DNA from: Rhabdophis nuchalis
Lineage: Eukaryota; Chordata; Lepidosauria; Squamata; Natricidae
DNA length: 64,000 nucleotides
NCBI GenBank assembly: GCA_039707465.1
Contig: CM077651.1
Span: forward strand, 16,844,019 to 16,908,018
Direction: 5' to 3'
Made by a program: the position numbers and the translations under genes. The notes under the pieces were generated by a model, which saw only the letters and a program-made list of their open reading frames with translations, did not search any database and was not told the DNA's origin. The number at the start of each line of letters is the position of its first letter. Position 1 is the first letter of the stretch. This document shows positions 4,442 through 41,319 of the stretch, piece after piece.

Positions 4442-4493
4442 GCCTAGATCATGAAGACCTATTGCAAAGAAATAAATTTAATTTCCCTTTACT

Positions 4494-4520
4494 CTGAGCC
4501 GTGTAGCACAGTGGTTAGAG
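4494..4520 (+). mobile_element. Head of a Sauria-type SINE split by an L2 insertion
   Basis: GAGCCGTGTAGCACAGTGG followed by TTAGAGT is the tRNA-derived 5' head of the SINE also seen at 27726. The matching remainder begins after the L2 at about 7646. Confidence 0.8.
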
Positions 4521-7441
4521 TTGGGGACGCGCGGTCGCTGGCTAAAAGCAGTCGCCTGCCCCAACCCTCTGTGCTCCACTCATGGGCTAGGCGGTCAGGG
4601 ACTACAGAGCCGGGGGCCCAGGCTGATGTTCTGTAACGCCAGGTCCGTGGTGAACAAAGCCCCCCTCACTAATGACCTTGTGTCAGAGGGGGACCCGGAC
4701 CTGGTGGGAATCACGGAAACCTGGTTGGGCCCCGAGGGGGGCTTACCCCTCGTGGAAATGTGCCCACCAGGCTACCGTGCATTTCATCAGCCAAGGGTCC
4801 TAGGCAGGGGTGGGGGGGTGGCGGTTATTGTTAAGGAAAGTCTGGAGCTGAGGGAGACCACTGTGTCTCAGACGACCAGCTGTGAGTCCCTCTTCGTGAA
4901 GTGGGGCCTAGGGAGGCAGTTGGGCTTGCTGATTGTATACCTGACTCCCCGCTATGTAACAGCAGCCCTGCCCGAGCTACTCGAGGTGATTGCTGCGATG
5001 GCAGTGGAGACCCCCAGACTGCTAGTCATGGGGGACTTTAACCTGCCATCGACGGGCGAATCATCCGAGGCAGCTCGGGAGTTCATGGCTTCCATGACGG
5101 CCATGGACCTGACCCAAGTAGTTCAAGGCCCCACTCACGAGAGAGGACACACGCTGGATCTGATTTTTGTCTCTGGTCAGTGGAGAAGTGATCTCGGAAT
5201 TGGGGATTTAGTCATCTCACCCTTGTCATGGACAGATCACTCTCTCCTTCGGATAGACTTTCCAACTGTCACACCCCACCGCGGGGAGGCGGAACCGAAG
5301 ACACCGAGTTGGTTCCGCCCCAGGCGCCTGATGAACCCGGAAAGGTTCCAGAGGGAGCTTGTGCCAATACCTGTGTCCCTGCCCCGCGACTCGACTGAGG
5401 ACCTAGTGGCCGCATAGTATAGTGCAGCCACGGGGGCCTTGGACCGAGTCGCGCCCTTGCGGCCTCTCACGTGGCGTCGAGTCACCCAGGCCCCTTGGTT
5501 TACCGAGGAGCTTCGGGAGATGAAACGCCGCAAGAGACGCCTAGAGAGTAGGTGGAGATCTTCTCGATCCGAAGCTGACCGAACACTAGTGAGAGACCAT
5601 ATTAGGACTTACTTAGTGGCGCTAAGAGTGGCCAAACATGAGTATTGTGCCACCCTTATCGCGTCCGCGGAAAACCGCCCTGCCACCCTGTTTGGGGTGA
5701 CCCGCTCCCTCCTTCATCTGAGGCCGCGGGAAGCCCCTTTGCAGGGTTGAGCAGAGGAATTTGGAGTTTTCCTGCAGGATAAAATCACTCAGATTCGGAA
5801 CGAGTTGCCCTCCACTGAAAGTGACCTAGTCGAGGTGCCCGGTGCTGGTCTTGAGATCACACCTTGGGAGGAGTTTGACTTTGTCACTACCGAGGATATG
5901 GACAGGTTGCGGAGGAACCTTAGAGCCACCACATGTTTATTGGACCCGTGCCCCTCTTGGCTTGTAATGGCATCCTGGGAGGTGACATGAGGCTGGCTCC
6001 AGGGTATTGTGAATTCATCTCTGAGTGAGGGGTTCTTGCCTACCGTCTTGAAAGAGGCGGTGGTGAGGCCCCTCCTCAAGAAGCCATCCCTGGACCCGGC
6101 TTTATTACAGAACTATCGTCCCGTCTCCAACCTTCACTTTTTAGTGAAGGTTGTTGAGAGTGTGGTGGCCCAACAGTTCCCTCGACACCTGGAGAAAGTT
6201 GATTATCTAGACCCGCGCCAGTCCGGCTTCCGGCCCGGTCACAGTACCGAGATGGCATTGGTCGCGTTGGTGGATGATCTCTGGAGGGCTTGGGATAGAG
6301 GTTGTTCCTCTATCCTGGTCCTGTTAGACCTCTCAGCGGCTTTTGATACCATCGACCATGGTATCTTATTGCACCGATTGGGGGGGTTGGGGCTGAGAGG
6401 CACCATTTTACGGTGGTTCTCATCCTACCTCTCTGGTCGGTCGCAATGGGTGTTGGCAGGAGGGCAGAGGTCGGCCCCGAGGCCCCTCACATGTGGGGTT
6501 CCTCAGGGGTCGGTCCTCTCGCCACTTCTGTTCAACACCTACATGAAGCCGCTGGGCAAGATCATCCATGGTTTTGGGGTGGAGTACCATCTGTACGCTG
6601 ATGACACTCAGCTGTACATATCCACCCCAAACCACCCCAACGATGCCGTCGAGGTGCTGTCCCGGTGTCTGGAGGCCGTACGGGTCTGGATGGGTAGTAA
6701 CAAACTCAAACTCAACCCGTCCAAGACCGAGTGGCTGTGGTTTCCGGCACCCCGGTTTAGCCAGATAAGTCCAACACTGGCCATCGGGGGCGAACATCTT
6801 GCCCCCGTGGAGAGGGCGCGCAACTTGGGTGTCCTCCTCGATTCCCGGCTGTCCATGGAGGACCATGTGGTGGCCGTGGCCAGGGGGGCGTTCTATCAGG
6901 TTCGCCTGATACGCCAGTTGCACCCCTTACTAGACCGGGGGCCCTTCGCACAGTCACTCAAGCGCTCGTGACATCTCGGCTGGATTACTGTAACGCTCTC
7001 TACATGGGGCTCCCCTTGAGGTGCACTCGAAAGCTACAGTTAGTGCAGAATGCGGCCACGCGGGTGGTTATGGGTGCCCCAAGGCAAGCCCACGTAACAC
7101 CTCTCCTGCGTGAGGTGCACTGGCTGCCTGTGGCCTTTCGAGTGCGCTTCAAGGTATTGACTACCATCTTTAAATCGCTCCATGGCTCGGGGGCTAGCTA
7201 TATACGAGACCGCCTCCTGCCCCATATATCCCTTCGTCCGTTCCGTTCCCACAGAACGGGTCTTCTCCGGGTGCCGTCGGCTGGGCAATGCCGGCTGGCG
7301 ACACCCAGGGGAAGAGCCTTCTCTGTGGCCGGCCCGGCCTTCTGGAACGACCTACCCCCCAACCTTCGCACTACCTCGGACCTCCGCCTCTTCCGCCAAC
7401 GTCTTAAGACGTACTTATTCCAACAAGCCGGCCTAGGATAG
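4521..7441 (+). pseudogene. L2 ORF2 (endonuclease-reverse transcriptase), broken copy
   Basis: ORF2 of L2 LINEs nicks target DNA and copies the element RNA into the nick. Seen here: an APE-type endonuclease (CNARS near 4635, TETWLG near 4715, GDFNLP near 5032, WTDHSLL near 5230) and a reverse transcriptase ([10 protein letters not shown] near 6340, [10 protein letters not shown] near 6498, the catalytic YADD at 6594-6605), then the C-terminal CTRKLQLVQNAATRV and WNDLPP motifs. The frame is broken by three stops, at 5415-5417, 5748-5750 (CGA to TGA) and 5988-5990 (CGA to TGA), and by a frameshift near 6940-6968. Two of the three stops are CpG-type transitions, as expected for a methylated, inactive copy. 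All catalytic motifs are still readable, so the insertion is not very old. Confidence 0.92.
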
Positions 7442-13130: not shown

Positions 13131-13331
13131 ATATCAAGATAAATCGAAATCTACTATATTTTATCCCTCCTATGTAGTTTAGGAAGGAGGATGGCTTTGC
13201 ACTTTTTTCCCCACTGAATCTTCCCATTGGGGATGAATGTTTTTGTGCTGTCCTGAATAATCCACAGGGTTTATCTGTTAACAGATATTAGCAACAATGG
13301 AGCCACTTCATCAATTCACCTTTCCTTGGCC

Positions 13332-14172
13332 CAGTGGCGTAGCGTGGGTTGTCAGCACCCGGGGCAAGGCAAGTAATTTGCGCCCCCTAACCCCTGGATT
13401 TTAGCACTCGAGTCTCTTCCACTCCATTGCCCGCCGCAGGGCCCCCGCCCGCCGCCGCCCCCTCCTCGGCAGCGGCTGTGGCACCCGGCGGCGAGGCAAC
13501 CCCTTCGCTCATCCTTCTCGGTGCCTTTCTAGCCCCCCCCCCGGGGAAGCAGCGGCATCGAGGACGGGGAGGGCGCAGCATGCGGAGCGGCGGGAAAGCG
13601 AGAAACGGGAAGGGGGGAGAGGAGGGGTGCAGGAAGATCCGACGGCAGCGGGGTAGGGGAGGCAGCCGCAGCCGGCAGGTACCCGAAAGAGCTGGCCTCC
13701 CTTCGATCCGGAGAGCGGGACGCCTCTCCCGCCCTGTCAGCTACATCTCCGCGCATTCACAAGACCGCTGCTGAATCAGCTGGAACGCGCGAGCTCTCCC
13801 CACCTTCCGCCCGCCGAGCTCTCTTCCTTTTCCCTGCGATTTCCCGCCCCCTCCCGGTTTCCTGGATTCCGGATCCCCCCTCCCCCGCCCGAGAAATAAT
13901 ACTAATAAAAATATGAAAAATCCCCTAAGATCCTTTCCCCAAGGAAGAAGACGGGGCGACGGGGAGAAAACGCCTCCTCCTGCAGCCGCTCTTGCTTCGG
14001 GCGATGCTTCTCCGGTCCCCGCGGCGGTGGCCACATTCCCCGGCTGCCGCTGTTCCTGCCTTACTCGATCCCCTTTCCCGAAGCGACGGGGAGCTGCGAG
14101 TGCGAGCACGCCCCCCCAGATGTTGCGCCCGGTGCGGCCCGCACCCCCTGCACCCCCCACGCTACGCCACTG
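13332..14172 (-). mobile_element. Pack-type hAT-like transposon carrying an NRG3-like first exon
   Basis: An 841-bp element. Its ends are CAGTGGCGTAGCGTGGG and the reverse complement of the same 17 bases, flanked by the exact 8-bp duplication CCTTGGCC (13324-13331 and 14173-14180). The left 92 bp (13332-13423) and right 82 bp (14091-14172) match the ends of the element at 32852-35777 almost base for base, while the interior (13424-14090) is unrelated, very GC- and CpG-rich and different from all flanking DNA. The interior therefore looks captured. No transposase is encoded. Confidence 0.88.
13424..13512 (-). pseudogene. NRG3: NRG3-like (neuregulin-3) N-terminal coding fragment, captured
   Basis: On the minus strand an ATG at 13512-13510 opens about 30 codons: MSEGVASPPG, ATAAAEEGAA, AGGGPAAGNG. 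From memory, the human neuregulin-3 N-terminus has the same order of short blocks (MSEG, SPPGA, AEEG, GGGP) before its CSDC motif. The coding part stops where the shared left arm of the transposon begins, well before any EGF or transmembrane domain. Upstream on the minus strand (13513-14090) is GC-rich DNA that would be the promoter and 5' UTR of the source gene. The Ala/Gly richness makes chance similarity possible, but the order of specific blocks argues against it. As a fragment it cannot make a functional ligand. Confidence 0.62.
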
Positions 14173-14291
14173 CCTTGGCCTGTTGACATGAACAAATTTT
14201 GACGGACTGTACAGAAAATTAAGAGGTGTATGGAACAGCTGAAAATGCCCACCTGCTGAGTCCCAGGCTGTCATGGTATTTATACATAATA

Positions 14292-31810: not shown

Positions 31811-32850
31811 TCTGAAGAGCAGTCAGGGTCAGTCAACTAATGCTAAATTATTATGTGCTCAAATGTGGTAAGGTTTGGCATTACCTGTAACAGAGTAATG
31901 TTGTGGCAGATGATGGAATTTAGAAAGATAGATAAATTTATTTTTCTGCTTAGAGAAAAGACAATATCTACATTTATTGTGCAGTGGAAACCCATTGTAG
32001 ACTTTTTACATGAAAATGAATGGATGGTTGTGGTTTTGATTAAGAAAAAAAATAGTTAATAGGGAAAAAAGAGTGTTTCTCTTTGTAACCATAAAGTAAA
32101 AGATAATTTTACTTGTATTTGCTGCAAGGATAATCAGAAACCACTGTTTAAAGTTCATCATTTCTTCTTGCACTTTTGTCTTTCATTTGTGTTTCTTTTT
32201 TTCTTATCATCTTATTCTTTGCTTTGAATTAGTTTTTCATAGCATGTATCTTCTTTTGAAAACTTTTATGTTTTTTGCTGAATTATAAGGGAACTATTTG
32301 AAAGCCAAAAAATATTTTACTTTTGAGAAATTTTCCAATGACTGAGTGCCATTGTAAGAAAGAAAGAAGAAAGTCAGTCTTTCTTCTACAGGAAATATGC
32401 TACGTGATGGTGCAATACTCAATGACATATTTAATGGTGCTTGTCAATGAACTATTGAATTGTCAGAAGTAATTCAAAGCAGAGGACAAAACAGTTCTCA
32501 AAAATCTAAAAAAGAATCAAACCATAACTATCCTCCCAGCAGACAAATATTAATATTAATAATAATAATAATAATAAATTTTATTTATATCCCACTCTCT
32601 CTCCCCGAAGGGACTCGAATATTGAATCATATTTATTGTGGAAGGGACAATATATATACAAAAAGCCGAATAATTACTAGAGGGTAAAATAAGCTTACAT
32701 TTCAGTAAACAGTTCAGTAAACAGACATCAGACAACCTGATCCATGAACCAAGAAAGCCAAATCACAAAAGAAGAACAACAGGTAAAAAGCAATGTATGT
32801 ATGTCTCAAATTACACAAATCCAACATGCAACTGTATTACTACCAGGGAC
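31811..32850. other. No gene seen; AT-rich DNA with an L2 tail fragment
   Basis: 32555-32622 (ATAATAATAAATTTTATTTA then CTCTCCCCGAAGGGACTCG) is the reversed 3' tip of an L2 of the 61164 type. The rest is unassigned. Confidence 0.5.
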
Positions 32851-32851
32851 C

Positions 32852-35021
32852 CAGTGGCGTAGCGTGGGTTGTCAGCACCCGGGGCAAGGCAAGTAATTTG
32901 CGCCCCCTAACCCGTGGATTTTAGCACTCGAGTCTCTTCCACTAGATTAGTTAAAGAAACCCTTACCCCCTAAGCACATGTATTGTTTGTTATGAAAATA
33001 CTGATTTAATTAAAGTAAAATGCATCTAAATACAAGTTTATTTTCAAACACTTTATTGAGTGTGAACATGCATTACACATTCTCCACATTTTCAGCAGGT
33101 CTATGAATACAAATCTACAAATGTAGTAACCTAGCATGGGCCATGCTATTATATGTCGTCTCACAACCATCATATCAAGATGATATCAATATCAAGAACA
33201 AAAACTAAGCATCAAAATGGAACCATACCCTGGAGATGATCCAAGACTGGGCTAGATGGAGCCAACTTCCTCAATCCTGTACATCTAATTGTAATTCTTT
33301 AATAGAAGTGCAAGATATCAATCTGTATATAATATACAGATTAATTTAAATTTGCCTGCTTTTAATTAGCGCAAATTTTTCAACAACGGAATTGCCGTTG
33401 TTGATGCTACAGAATCACGTAGTTGCCCTTTGTGTAGGCAATGATTGTCAGAGGAAAAACAGCACATTCTTCAGCTGGAATTTTTAGACCTTTTGAGGAC
33501 ATGAGAGCAGTGGGACATGGTGGCATACTGCAGGAGGAAAAAGGACCACCGAACCAATGCATCATTTTTCTGTAGTTACCCAAGCAGCATTCAACCATTT
33601 TATCACAAGGAGCAAGTTCACCAACACTTGACCAGTTTACAAGAAGCAAGTTCACAGAAGTCATTCAAAGCACCAGAACAGAGTTCACAAGATAGAGCTT
33701 ATCGTTTCAAAGGAGGCAAAAGAAAGGCTTCTTTCCCATTCAGAAACCCCACCTTCAACACAGTCTGCTCATTCAGAATTTGTGTTCTTGTAGGCTGTAT
33801 CATCCAATTTCTGTTTCATGTGGATACTCAGGATTTATATAGGCCTAGCAATTAAAATAATGTTGACGTCTTGGAATTTTAACTGCCCTTTCAAACCTTA
33901 CCAAGGGAGGTATATAGAACAGTACAGTACAAGTAGTGGGAGTGGTCAAAGTACGCAGTACTTACTTATCTATATCACAAACTTAATAGCACATACAAGT
34001 GTAGTTGGGTAAATATCTACAATAGGCATGCCTTTAAAGCCTCAAAGTAATCAAGTTATGACTCATTTCTGCTAGGTTACTCTGAAAACCGACTAAAACA
34101 CAACCTCAAAGTCTTAAAAAAAAAACTAATTTTCATTTATCCCAAGTCAAAAAAAAGTATTCAGGCAGAAAATGTCAGAAGGGACAATAATAAAAACTTT
34201 TAAGGAAAAGGTGCAAGTTCCCACCTTAAAAACAATGAAACCAATGCAAGTTCCTTCATATTGGCATGAAATTCTGAGAGGAAGAACAAGGATTGCTGAG
34301 CTCAGACTGTCTTTTTGAAAAAAATGTTTCAAATACTGTACTTTTAAATTTGTTTTTAAAAATATATGTGCTTACTGCAAAACATCAGCAAATCAGGATG
34401 TTGTTCAGAATTGGTGACATTTTTTATTTAACACTTTTAGGGGATGCTAACTTGAGTACCTTGGTTTTAAAACCCTATACAAGTGTCCTTCAATTCAATG
34501 GGCTTTACTCCACAACTGGTCATCTTCTCTAAGGGCCACAAAAGCTACCTCATAGATACGGATTGTAGATGTCAAGATTGACCTCTGAATGAATGCTTAG
34601 GAAACCCGACCTAAAAACCCCAAACCGTACAGAGGGACTACTACTCTTTCTGCCACCACCTCCCTTCTCAAAACTACTAGAGGCATCTGGTTGAGAGCGA
34701 CTTTCCACATCCCCTTTCGAAGTATAAACTTCCTTCCAAAACAAACAGGCAGCACCTTTCCGGGACCTCTCCCAGGAACATGGGACACCCTTGTAAGTGA
34801 TTTGCCGGCGCTGCTTGCAGCTTCCAGCTGGAAGGGTAAGAGAAAGCCCATCCTCCCAACCACTCAGGTAACTCAAGCAGAAGCAGCGACAGGTGTTTCC
34901 GCCGTCCCTTCCTCCGAGAACAGCGTCCCCCCCCCGTCATCCTCGCACTACATGCCCTCCTCCCTTTCCCTTTTAACCGTCCTGGAGCCACCGCCGCCGT
35001 TGGTTCTCTCCCAAATGCGGG

Positions 35022-35065
<44 letters not shown>

Positions 35066-35777
35066 TGCACAGCAGGGGGAGTTGCCTGTTCCTGGCGTCT
35101 TCCGCAACAGTCCCAAGTCGCAATCCCTGCCGACCGGAGGCGCGCGCGTCCCGCCGCGGCGCGCGAAAGAAGTTTCGGGGCAGCCTCTCCGAGCCTCCCC
35201 CTGCGGCCTTTGGGTTCGCTTCCCCCGCTCTTTTACCTGTCCTCTTTGCAAGCTGCGCCTTCCCGGGCCAGACGCCGCCGGTGTGTGTGTGTTTGTGTGT
35301 GTGTGGGGGGGGGGCTACCTCCCGCGCGCGCTAAGCTCTTTTGCTGAGGGGGGGAGGTTGTTGCAAAGTGAACTCTTCCTCCACCCTCAGCTCGGCGCCT
35401 TCACTCTTTCTCTCTCCCCAGCCCCGTTATTTCATCGGCGGGGAGAGGGAGGGGGGCGGTGGCGGAGGCTGCTCCACAGTGACCTCTGCTGCCCGCAATA
35501 GGCGAGGCGAAAGGGTGGGTCGAGCCCCTTCCTCTCCTCCACTTGTAATCCGCATATAGGCGATTTTTGCAGGAGGTGGCGGGGGGGAGCTCTCGGCTTC
35601 CTGACTTCCCTTCCCCTCGCCTCAGCTCGGCCGGCTCGGATCGGATTCGCACAGCCAGCACTGCAGAGAGAGTGAGTGAGCCAGTCAGGGGCAGAGAGCT
35701 GCGAGTGCGAGTGCGCCCCCCCAGATGTTGCGCCCGATGCGGCCGGCACCCCCTGCACCCCCCACGCTACGCCTCTG
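32852..35777 (-). mobile_element. Pack-type hAT-like transposon with a 2.75-kb CpG-rich cargo
   Basis: A 2926-bp element. Left end CAGTGGCGTAGCGTGGG; right end CCACGCTACGCCTCTG; exact 8-bp duplication CAGGGACC at 32844-32851 and 35778-35785. The first 92 bp and last 82 bp match the element at 13332-14172; the interior (32944-35695) does not. The interior changes from AT-rich (32944-34600) to strongly GC- and CpG-rich (34880-35695). On the minus strand this reads as a CpG-island promoter followed by a body and then two AATAAA signals (33042-33037 and 33057-33052), so it could be a captured transcription unit. No transposase frame is visible. The cargo gene is not recognised; an 85-codon minus frame at 33407-33664 has no known domain. 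Confidence 0.85.
34880..35695 (-). promoter_or_regulatory. CpG-island-like promoter segment inside the cargo
   Basis: Dense CpG and GC boxes (for example 35140-35170, 35430-35470, 35620-35650), sharply different from the AT-rich flanks, with (AC)n at 35024-35061 and (GT)n-like at 35280-35305. Whether it is active is unknown; it moved here as part of a transposon. Confidence 0.45.
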
Positions 35778-38056: not shown

Positions 38057-38974
38057 ATGTACTCTAGACGCGACCTCCTGAGCCTGCGGGAGTCTCCCCT
38101 CTCGCAGGCCTGGCCCTCCTGTTTAACACGGGCCCGCCTCGATGACGGACTGATTAATCCTGAGAGGTGGGCGAAGCGCAGGTTGAGGGGTTTTTTAGGG
38201 AGGTTTTTAATTAGGCTTTTAGGGGGTTCCAGGGAGGAGGGGAAAAATAGTCCAGGGAGGGGACAGCAAATGAGGCCGGCGGGCGGAAGTAGGGAAACGG
38301 AGGAAGGGAGGGGGGGGGTCATTTCCACGGTAGCTCTTTCCATCGATTCGGTCTGGGGGAGGGGCAGGGGCGGAGGGAGACGAAATGGGTACCATCAGTT
38401 GGAAGACCGTGGCCGCTGGATCCAGGCGGTCACGTGCTCCAACTCTCCGCTCTCCCATCGCAGACTAGGTGGGCAGGAATCACAGGCCCAGGGCCCGAAG
38501 CTGATGTTATGCAACGCCAGGTCCGTGGTTCAAAAATCCCCCCTCATTCGTGACCTTGTGTCAGAGGGGGACCCGGACCTGGTGGGTATAACGGAAACCT
38601 GGTTGGGCCACGAGGGGGGTACGCCCCTCGTGGACATGTGCCCACCAGGTTACCGTGCTTTTCATCAGCCTAGGGCCCTAGGGAGGGGTGGGGGGGTGGC
38701 GATTATCGTAAAGGAAGGTCTTGAGCCAAAGGAGACCTCTGTCCCCCAGACAACCGGGTGTGAATCTCTCTATGTGAGATGGGGCCTAGGAAGGCAGTTG
38801 GGCATGTTAGTTGTATACCTGGCTCCTCGCTATGCAACAACAGCCCTGCCCGAGCTCCTAGAGGTGATAGCCGAGGCGGCAGTTGAGACCCCCAGACTGG
38901 TAGTCATGGGGGACTTTAACTTGCCGTCGGCGGGCGAAGCCTCTGGAGCAGCTCGGGAGTTGCCATGGACCTGA
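38057..38974 (+). pseudogene. L2 ORF2, N-terminal part with endonuclease (frame 1)
   Basis: I choose the ATG at 38057 (MYSRRDLLSLRE), since L2-type ORF2 proteins often open with a YSR...LLSLR motif; the frame is open from 38006. An Arg/Gly-rich basic segment follows to about 38480. The APE-type endonuclease then shows CNARS at 38510-38524, TETWLG from 38591 and GDFN at 38909-38920 (metal-binding and catalytic positions of this nuclease family). The frame ends at 38974 because of a 1-bp deletion near 38958, judged by comparison with 5078-5102 of the other copy. The last endonuclease motif, SWTDH, lies in the next frame. Confidence 0.9.
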
Positions 38975-41319
38975 CGGCCATGGACCTGACCCAAGTAGTT
39001 TTAGGCCCCACTCACGAGGGGGGGAACACACTGGATCTCATCTTTGTCTCAGGACAGTGGAGCCGTGATCTTGGAATAGGGGATCTAGTCATTACTCCCT
39101 TGTCATGGACGGATCACGCTCTCCTTCGGCTGGACTTTCCAATCGCTGCACCCCACCGCGGGGAGGCAGAACCGGACACTCCTATATGGTTCCGCCCCAG
39201 GCTTCTAATGGACCCGGAAAGGTTCCAGAGGGAGCTTGGGCCAATTCCTGTGACCCTGCCCCGCGACTCGACTGAGGACCTAGTGGCCGCATGGTTAAGT
39301 GCAGCCACGGGGGCCTTGGACCGAGTTGCGCCCTTGCGGCCTCTCTTGCGGCGACGAATCACCCGGGCTCCTTGGTTCACTGAGGAGCTCCGGGGGATGA
39401 AACGCCACAAGAGATGCCTAGAGAGTAGATGGAGATCCTCTCGCTCCGAAGCCGACCGAACACTAGTGAGAACCCATATTAGGGCTTATTTAGTGGCGAT
39501 AAGAGTGGCCAAACGGGAGTATTGTGCCACTCTTATTGCATCCGCAGATAACCGCCCTGCCGCCCTGTTTGGGGTGACCCGCTCCCTCCTTCACCAGAGG
39601 CCGCGGGAAGCCCCTCTGCAAGGGCGAGCAGAGGAATTTGGGATTTATCTGCAGGAGAAAATCACTCGGATTCGGAATGAGCTACCCTCCATCGACAGTG
39701 GTCCTGTGGGACTGTCCGAGGCTAGTCTTGAGGCTCCTTCTTGGGAGGAGTTTGACTTTGTTACCACCGAGGATATGGACAGGTTGTCAAGGAAACTTAG
39801 GGCGACCACATGTTTATTGGACCCGTGTCCCTCCTGGCTTGTACTGGCATCCTGGGAGACGACACGAGGCTGGCTCCAGGGCATTGTCAACGCATCTTTG
39901 AGTGAGGGGTCCTTACCTGCCGTCTTGAAAGAGGCGGTAGTGAGGCCCCTCCTCAAGAAGCCGTCCCTGGACCCAGCTTTACTAGAGAACTATCGTCCGG
40001 TCTCCAACCTTCACTTTTTAGTGAAGGTTGTCGAGAGTGTGGTGGCCCAACAGTTTCCGCGACACCTGGAGGAAGTTGATTATCTAGACCCACGCCAGTC
40101 CGGCTTCCGGCCCGGTCACAGTACTGAGACGGCATTGGTCGCGTTGGTTGATGATCTCTGGAGGGCGCGGGATAGAGGGTATTCCTCTATCCTAGTCCTA
40201 TTAGACCTCTCGGCGGCTTTTGATACCATCGACCATGGTATCCTATTGCACCGACTGGGGGGGTTGGGGCTGGGAGGCACCGTTCTGCGGTGGTTCTCAT
40301 CCTACCTCTCTGGTCGGTCGCAATATGTGTTGACGGGAGGGCAGAGGTCGACCTCGAGGCCTCTCCTATGTGGGGTTCCTCAGGGGTCGGTCCTCTCGCC
40401 CCTCCTTTTCAACACATATATGAAGCCGCTGGGTGAGATCATCCGTGGTTTTGGGGTGGAATACCATCTGTACGCTGATGACACTCAGTTGTACATATCC
40501 ACCCCAAACCACCCCAACGATGCCGCCGAAGTGCTGTCCCGGTGTCTGGAAGCCGTACGGATCTGGATGGGTGGTAACAAACTCAAACTCAACCCTGCCA
40601 AGACTGAGTGGCTGTGGTTTCCGGCACCCCGGTTCAGCCAGATCACTCCAACTCTGGCCATTGGGGGCGAAACACTGGCCCCCGTGGAGAGGGCGCGCAA
40701 TTTGGGTGTCCTCCTGGATTCCCGGCTGTCCATGGAGGACCATGTGGCAGCCGTGGCCAGGGGGGCGTTCCATCAGGTTCGCCTGATGCGCCAACTGCGC
40801 CCCTTACTGGACCGGGCTGCCCTACGCACAGTCACTCAAGCACTCGTGACGTCCCGACTCGACTACTGTAATACTCTCTACATGGGGCTTCCCTTGAGGT
40901 GCACTCGAAAGCTACAGCTAGTCCAAAACGCAGCCGCGCGGGTGATTATGGGAGCCACTAGATGCTCCCACATAACACCGATCCTGCGCGAGCTGCATTG
41001 GCTTCCTGTGGCCTTTCGAGTGCGCTTCAAGGTTTTGACTACCATCTTTAAAGCGCTCCATGGCTCGGGACCTAGTTATATGCGAGACCGCCTCCTGCCC
41101 CATACATCCCTCAGACCAATCCGCTCCCACAGAGAGGGCCTCCTCAGGGTACCGTCGGCCGGACAATGCCGACTGGCGACGCCCAGGGGAAGAGCCTTCT
41201 CTGTGGCGGGGCCAGCCCTTTGGAATGACCTACCCCCTGAATTACGTACCATCACCGACCTCCGCCTCTTCCGCCAATGTCTTAAGACATATCTGTTTCA
41301 ACAAGCCGGCCTAGCCTAA
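38965..41319 (+). pseudogene. L2 ORF2, endonuclease C-terminus and reverse transcriptase (frame 2)
   Basis: A 784-codon open frame with no stop. Residues 1-65 complete the endonuclease (SWTDH at 47-51). The reverse transcriptase has [28 protein letters not shown] starting at about 414, GVPQGS at 470-475 and the catalytic YADD at 503-506. The C-terminal region carries CTRKLQLVQNAAARVIMG, TPILRELHWLPVAFR and WNDLPPELR. All expected reverse transcriptase motifs are intact, so this copy is young; the upstream frameshift alone would stop it making a full protein. An ATG exists at the very start of the frame, but there is no sign that it is used. Confidence 0.93.

Follow-up and report, generated by a model that had tools for sequence, protein, structure and literature searches.

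Copies of a hAT-like transposon with the start of NRG3 between their ends in the genome of Rhabdophis nuchalis

Animal genomes are known to contain cut-and-paste transposons that have taken up pieces of host genes. The available sections of a survey of 100 animal genomes (PMC8277862) describe 370 such Pack-TIRs, 208 of which are hATs (Pack-hATs) and only four of which are multicopy, the multicopy elements tending to capture GC-rich sequence. As given there, animal cut-and-paste gene capture produces mostly single copies made without transposition, and the frog element hAT-N8_XT carries a 291-bp 5' UTR piece of CAPSL at three places. An earlier note on the DNA studied here had stated that gene capture by DNA transposons is much less well documented in vertebrates than in plants; for hATs, these figures show better documentation than that note assumed. 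In bats, the NUBPL promoter, together with six codons, was dispersed by the Helitron HelibatN3, which also has a splice donor, according to the available part of PMC4778049.

We analysed a 64,000-nucleotide stretch of Rhabdophis nuchalis DNA, referred to as the window. It contains an element, element A, that is almost certainly a non-autonomous hAT in which the start of NRG3 took the place of the original interior (a Pack-hAT) and which was then amplified. Its parts are as follows.

13324..13331, no strand: left TSD copy CCTTGGCC, exact
13332..13348, plus strand: left 17-bp TIR CAGTGGCGTAGCGTGGG, 17/17 inverted match to CCCACGCTACGCCACTG
13332..13423, plus strand: left transposon arm, 92 bp, 98.9% identity with 32852-32943
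13422..14089, minus strand: NRG3 sequence captured from the host, about -715 to +90 with respect to the ATG
Junction near 13934/13935, minus strand: 137-bp internal deletion in the captured NRG3, relative to the parental locus L048
13423..13512, minus strand: first 30 codons of NRG3 MSEGVASPPGATAAAEEGAAAGGGPAAGNG, 93% identity to Salvator merianae NRG3
13387..13512, minus strand: open frame, 41 codons and TAG stop (30 NRG3 and 11 arm codons)
13513..14089, minus strand: captured NRG3 5' UTR and upstream CpG-island sequence (putative promoter), matching L048
14091..14172, plus strand: right transposon arm, 82 bp, 93.9% identity with 35696-35777
14156..14172, minus strand: right 17-bp TIR CCCACGCTACGCCACTG, inverted match to the left end
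14173..14180, no strand: right TSD copy CCTTGGCC, exact

Element A spans 13332-14172 (841 bp), and the exact 8-bp duplication and perfect 17-bp inverted ends described at its borders in the earlier note were borne out, as were the arms common to it and the element at 32852. The hAT superfamily has 8-bp TSDs and short TIRs with CAGTGGCG-like ends; element A has a TSD of this length, and its short TIRs have such ends over the whole 17/17 match. Helitrons have neither inverted repeats nor a TSD; a HelibatN3-like Helitron was thus ruled out by the TIRs and TSDs of element A and its copies. When ten reading frames of elements A and B (see below) were compared with Pfam, no hAT domain was found, and only two sub-threshold matches were obtained (E 0.13 and 0.022); Rfam at gathering scores gave no match in the whole window. 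The interior of element A is a CpG island with a G+C content of 0.67 and a CpG observed/expected ratio of 0.90 (0.41 and 0.38 in the whole window). On the minus strand it contains an ATG at 13512, from which the frame continues 11 codons into the arm and ends at TAG. LINE-like reverse transcriptase frames, identified by eye, were also seen in the window at 4482-7441 and 38920-41319, the second being open for 799 codons.

To identify the source of the interior, we rely on the NRG3 gene of the same genome. A search with Tiliqua NRG3 located residues 1-249 at C3:111992959-111993729, the parental exon 1 locus (L048), and residues 490-659, toward the end of the protein, at C3:112929460-112929972. 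The alignment proposed in the earlier note gave a match at the nucleotide level: the whole interior of element A, about 668 bp, aligned with the parental locus in two adjoining pieces, from about -715 to -558 (98.7% identity) and from -423 to +90 (97.9%) relative to the ATG, and the majority sequence of the copies described below matched over the same two pieces at 100% and 98.2%. AGG stands at each edge of the gap left by the 137 bp of NRG3 that are absent between the pieces. The parental locus departs from the 30 codons of element A at residues 12 and 29; by eye, the parental protein is similar to garter-snake NRG3, and the MSEG start is common to NRG3 of lizards, snakes, and human. No match to the transposon arms was found at the parental locus in the 3,771 bp compared.

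By this alignment, element A carries 30 codons from the start of NRG3 together with its 5' UTR and 5' flank, and the captured upstream stretch is a putative promoter. The minus-strand ATG with about 30 codons that had been read as the NRG3 N-terminus and the proposed inclusion of upstream sequence and 5' UTR both agree with the parental match. The interior placed at 13424-14090 was correctly described as CpG-rich and foreign to the transposon, whereas its limits, by the parental match, are about 13422-14089, within 2 bp. What had been called the first exon is indeed the start of NRG3, but it comprises only the first 30 codons, whereas the exon 1 match extends to residue 249.

A protein search with the first 40 residues of the element A frame, set in neutral padding, gave 230 candidates from 5.77 billion; eight proteins scored at E<=10, all of them squamate NRG3 from five species, with a best E-value of 0.032. 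Taken alone, this peptide search is suggestive of NRG3; because its E-values are weak, the case for NRG3 rests on the parental locus.

With element A as the query, the genome returned 41 matches, namely 40 full-length copies (that of the window included) and one 104-bp partial copy. These 40 A-type, or first-version, copies share 98.9-100% identity with the one in the window, in a best-scoring set (40 scored of 873 first-look candidates) in which older copies are therefore under-represented. Both 17-bp ends are kept in 40/40, on many contigs. The 40 TSDs are all distinct, and 38 of them are perfect over 8 bp, well beyond chance expectation; L012 matches at 7/8 positions and L017 at only 3/8, because the 104-bp partial copy abuts the full one. 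Thus, the capture proposed in the earlier note was upheld, but not as a lone event, since there are 40 near-identical scored copies and also a second NRG3-bearing version. In 38/40 copies a 41-codon frame is present, unchanged from that of the window in 27 and with single substitutions in others; the expected start string is absent in the other two.

The mean divergence of the first-version copies from their majority sequence is 0.43%. CpG sites differ about four times more often than other sites (1.14% versus 0.26% elsewhere), suggesting germline methylation. If neutral rates near 1e-9 per site per year hold here, the small divergence places the burst in the last few million years. In the arms of the 40 copies we counted 1 substitution in 3,680 aligned bases on the left and 9 in 3,280 on the right, against about 0.5% in the interior. 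This low arm divergence might be explained by selection acting on the ends from one round of transposition to the next. Part of the left end is duplicated in tandem in L072, which repeats about 97 bp, and in L017.

The second version emerged from the protein search with Tiliqua NRG3, which gave 67 scored matches of 1,061 candidates. Two of these are the gene itself, and the remaining 65, at about 60 loci, all lie within query residues 1-206. We read 51 loci (L049-L099) picked by protein match, 11 matches (about nine loci) among the weakest being omitted. Both transposon ends were found in 50 of the 51, the exception being L095, and a perfect 8-bp TSD in 47/50 (6/8 in L052, 7/8 in L063 and L082), the element ends of these and of the map-order loci below having been chosen partly by TSD match. 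L054 and L057 bear the same TSD and may represent one event. Most loci contain NRG3 from -135 to about +503, with 168 codons, flanked by one arm of 57 bp and another of about 65-73 bp. A long form, starting at -164, occurs at 6/50 loci and differs from the short form by a step of about 37 bp, and shorter cargo was found in L083 and L084, which end at +463, and in L096, which ends at +244.

The majority sequence of the second version differs from the gene at two positions in about 660 bp, excluding the last few arm-junction columns. The copies differ from their own majority by a mean of 1.83% (CpG 5.0%, other 0.94%; n=47, with L096, L072, and L057 dropped). Since the second version is more diverged than the first, it probably spread before the A-type. 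Both the identities and the intactness of frames are biased upward, because best-scored copies and protein-matched loci were sampled.

We saw no purifying selection on the 168 captured codons in the 47 copies when compared with 2,000 random re-placements. Replacement changes numbered 293 (274.7 expected), silent changes 148 (162.6 expected), and stop changes 4 (7.7 expected); replacement changes are, if anything, slightly above expectation. The ATG and frame are intact in 23/47 copies, a sample picked for its match to the protein. Change in the coding part of the second version resembles neutral evolution, and the captured NRG3 codons look like passengers. Selection on these codons was rejected as an explanation, as the replacement and silent counts are close to those of random re-placement.

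The ends of element A are not confined to NRG3 cargo. Exact matches to the first 42 bp of its left arm number 1,466 genome-wide (730 + 736), and those to the reversed control pattern 0. The first 30 left-end loci on contig C1 (L100-L129) were taken in map order, blind to the interior: 3 bear the A-type NRG3 interior, 18 other GC-rich interiors, 5 AT-rich interiors, and 4 transposase-bearing ones. The interior of the window copy is therefore not a standard part of every copy of the transposon; the opposite finding had been named in the earlier note as one that would count against its reading. From 3/30 map-order loci, the A-type copies may number about 150 genome-wide, with a wide margin. The right end was found within 1.5 kb in 19/30 loci (18 with a perfect TSD, one with 7/8) and was not found within this distance in 11/30.

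Among the GC-rich interiors, a 663-bp family comprises seven map-order loci (L106, L108, L110, L114, L123, L124, and L127, the right end of L127 not being found within 1.5 kb), and a family of about 700 bp comprises six (L104, L109, L115, L117, L118, and L120). L102 and L107 share another GC-rich segment, and L111, L121, and L122 form one class each. In several of these interiors, an ATG lies near the left arm as in element A and appears gene-start-like by eye; we infer that the other GC-rich interiors are captures. In L124, the ATG frame near the left arm reads MAEPFGQRLPAGSSRE and is followed by a donor-like GTGCGT, and in L109, L115, L118, and L120 a signal-peptide-like frame similar to MRALFRLFPLLLWFESGARDYLGEG lies near the left arm. 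The hAT lineage, recently active, could be a repeated promoter-capture system, which took up the CpG-island starts of several host genes (on two or more occasions that of NRG3) and set them at hundreds of sites in the last few million years, forming a standing supply of transplanted promoters; we offer this wider reading tentatively, our confidence in it being close to evenly divided but slightly on the doubtful side.

The hAT-like nature proposed for element A was corroborated by its relatives with the same left end. The hAT dimerisation domain PF05699 was detected in both loci tested of the four-member transposase-bearing class, L112 and L128 (E 3e-15 and 5e-14), although each transposase frame is broken upstream of the domain by an in-frame stop; L105 and L125 were assigned to the class by similarity only. 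In viral contigs there was no exact match to the initial 20 bp of the left end, and a search of them for NRG3 gave one pattern match and no relative, in a collection from which records near this genome may be excluded.

The AT-rich class is connected to element B, the second element of the window with the arms of element A.

32844..32851, no strand: left TSD CAGGGACC, exact 8 bp
32852..35777, plus strand: element B, 2,926 bp, with arms as in element A by arm identity
35778..35785, no strand: right TSD CAGGGACC, exact 8 bp

The left interior of element B, 32944-33394, is common to AT-rich copies elsewhere in the genome, the five AT-rich map-order loci, with L126 placed by a short match only. 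In L100, L101, L113, and L119, the similarity stops at 33394 in each case, and 33395-35640 of element B has no match within the 1.5 kb compared. The part to the right of 33394 includes a CpG-rich stretch near the right end. This part may be another acquired segment.

Several other explanations were weighed against capture followed by amplification. The probability that the likeness to NRG3 is a chance match of a low-complexity, Ala/Gly-rich translation is negligible; the peptide is short and simple and its best E-value is weak, but 8/8 matches are squamate NRG3 and the similarity to the NRG3 locus covers all 668 bp of the interior, which ruled this explanation out. The interior might instead be native to the transposon, NRG3 having received its first exon from it. 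Gene and interior are nearly identical, so that identity alone gives no direction, but the MSEG start is found in lizard, snake, and human NRG3 while the copies have diverged by less than 1% (first version) or about 2% on average (second version), and the parental locus shows no arm match in the 3,771 bp compared. Moreover, 27/30 map-order copies with the same left end are without the NRG3 interior of the window, by which a native origin was rejected, and we regard it as extremely improbable. It has also to be considered whether the copies are mobile, putative promoters that now drive host transcripts, like the NUBPL-promoter Helitrons of bats, and were amplified partly by co-option. The captured piece covers the NRG3 CpG-island upstream region and the ATG, and the available part of PMC4778049 provides a precedent, but the excess of changes at CpG sites suggests germline methylation, the frame ends 11 codons into the arm, and purifying selection was not seen on the 168-codon version. 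We therefore consider such a role unlikely.

Capture and amplification of NRG3 sequence, the reading that we prefer, could have involved one capture or two. All four arm/NRG3 breakpoints of the two versions differ, and in the 254-column overlap of the two majority sequences, where the first version differs from the parent by five substitutions and one indel and the second by one substitution, there are no shared derived changes, which favours two captures. Both versions could also be separate internal-deletion derivatives of a single long ancestor containing NRG3 from -715 or further upstream to at least +503. Internal deletion does occur in the lineage, as in the 137-bp gap of the A-type; the 168-codon version shows its own step between the long and short forms, and L102 and L107 share their GC-rich segment (430 bp, 95.6%) while their left breakpoints differ. 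An early split after one capture would likewise leave no shared changes, so that their absence is not decisive. The differing breakpoints and the lack, among the copies read, of a long ancestor with both NRG3 segments speak against it, and a single capture is accordingly a plausible explanation that we consider somewhat less probable than not.

As to the mechanism, repair or replication at a transposon copy may have used the NRG3 promoter region as a template for a while and then returned, which would have left NRG3 DNA enclosed by two transposon ends. As these ends remained intact, hAT transposase from fuller relatives could have moved the chimera in trans. At least 40 near-identical copies resulted, all at different target sites, and with every A-type copy the CpG-island upstream region of NRG3 and its ATG reached another location. 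The second version on the same ends would be the product either of a separate capture or of other internal deletions in a larger ancestor. Microhomology at capture breakpoints is frequent, though not obligatory, in Pack-TIRs; the four arm/NRG3 junctions share 0-2 bp, near the chance length, and are compatible with the gap-filling and fork-switching models in the available sections of PMC8277862. No ancestral intermediate of the NRG3 capture was identified among the copies read.

In this vertebrate genome, a recent burst thus lies side by side with its parent gene, transposase-bearing relatives, cargoes, and junctions. Two questions thereby become testable: by what route hATs take up host DNA, and whether GC-rich promoter regions are favoured when DNA is captured or when the element is amplified. 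Active copies, if there are any, would constitute a natural experiment in which the promoter of a signalling gene is moved around the genome.

Compared with the described systems, element A resembles the animal Pack-hATs, which in the available sections of PMC8277862 have a host fragment between hAT ends, a traceable parent, and distinct TSDs when multicopy; here, we found a host interior, a parent in the same genome, and 40 distinct TSDs among 40 copies. Unlike the multicopy Pack-TIRs reported in those sections, with copy numbers of three and five, one gene is represented here by 40 full-length copies of one version and 50 end-complete loci of another, and several other GC-rich interiors lie between the same ends. 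Like HelibatN3, as described in the available part of PMC4778049, element A combines a captured (here putative) promoter region with a few N-terminal codons, amplified in a vertebrate genome, but HelibatN3 is a rolling-circle element whereas element A is of the cut-and-paste type, with TIRs and 8-bp TSDs. Plant Pack-MULEs and Drosophila Ssk-FB4, as outlined in PMC8277862, likewise have a gene fragment between DNA-transposon ends and later transposition; they differ in being Mutator-like and from other hosts, FB4 having 9-10 bp TSDs and TIRs of about 700 bp. Judged by the titles and abstract openings of the matches listed, no matching case was found in the open literature, the subscription literature being mostly outside the scope of this search. 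Pack-hATs are already known in animals, and the copy number and variety seen here exceed those of the cases compared, as far as the available sections describe them.
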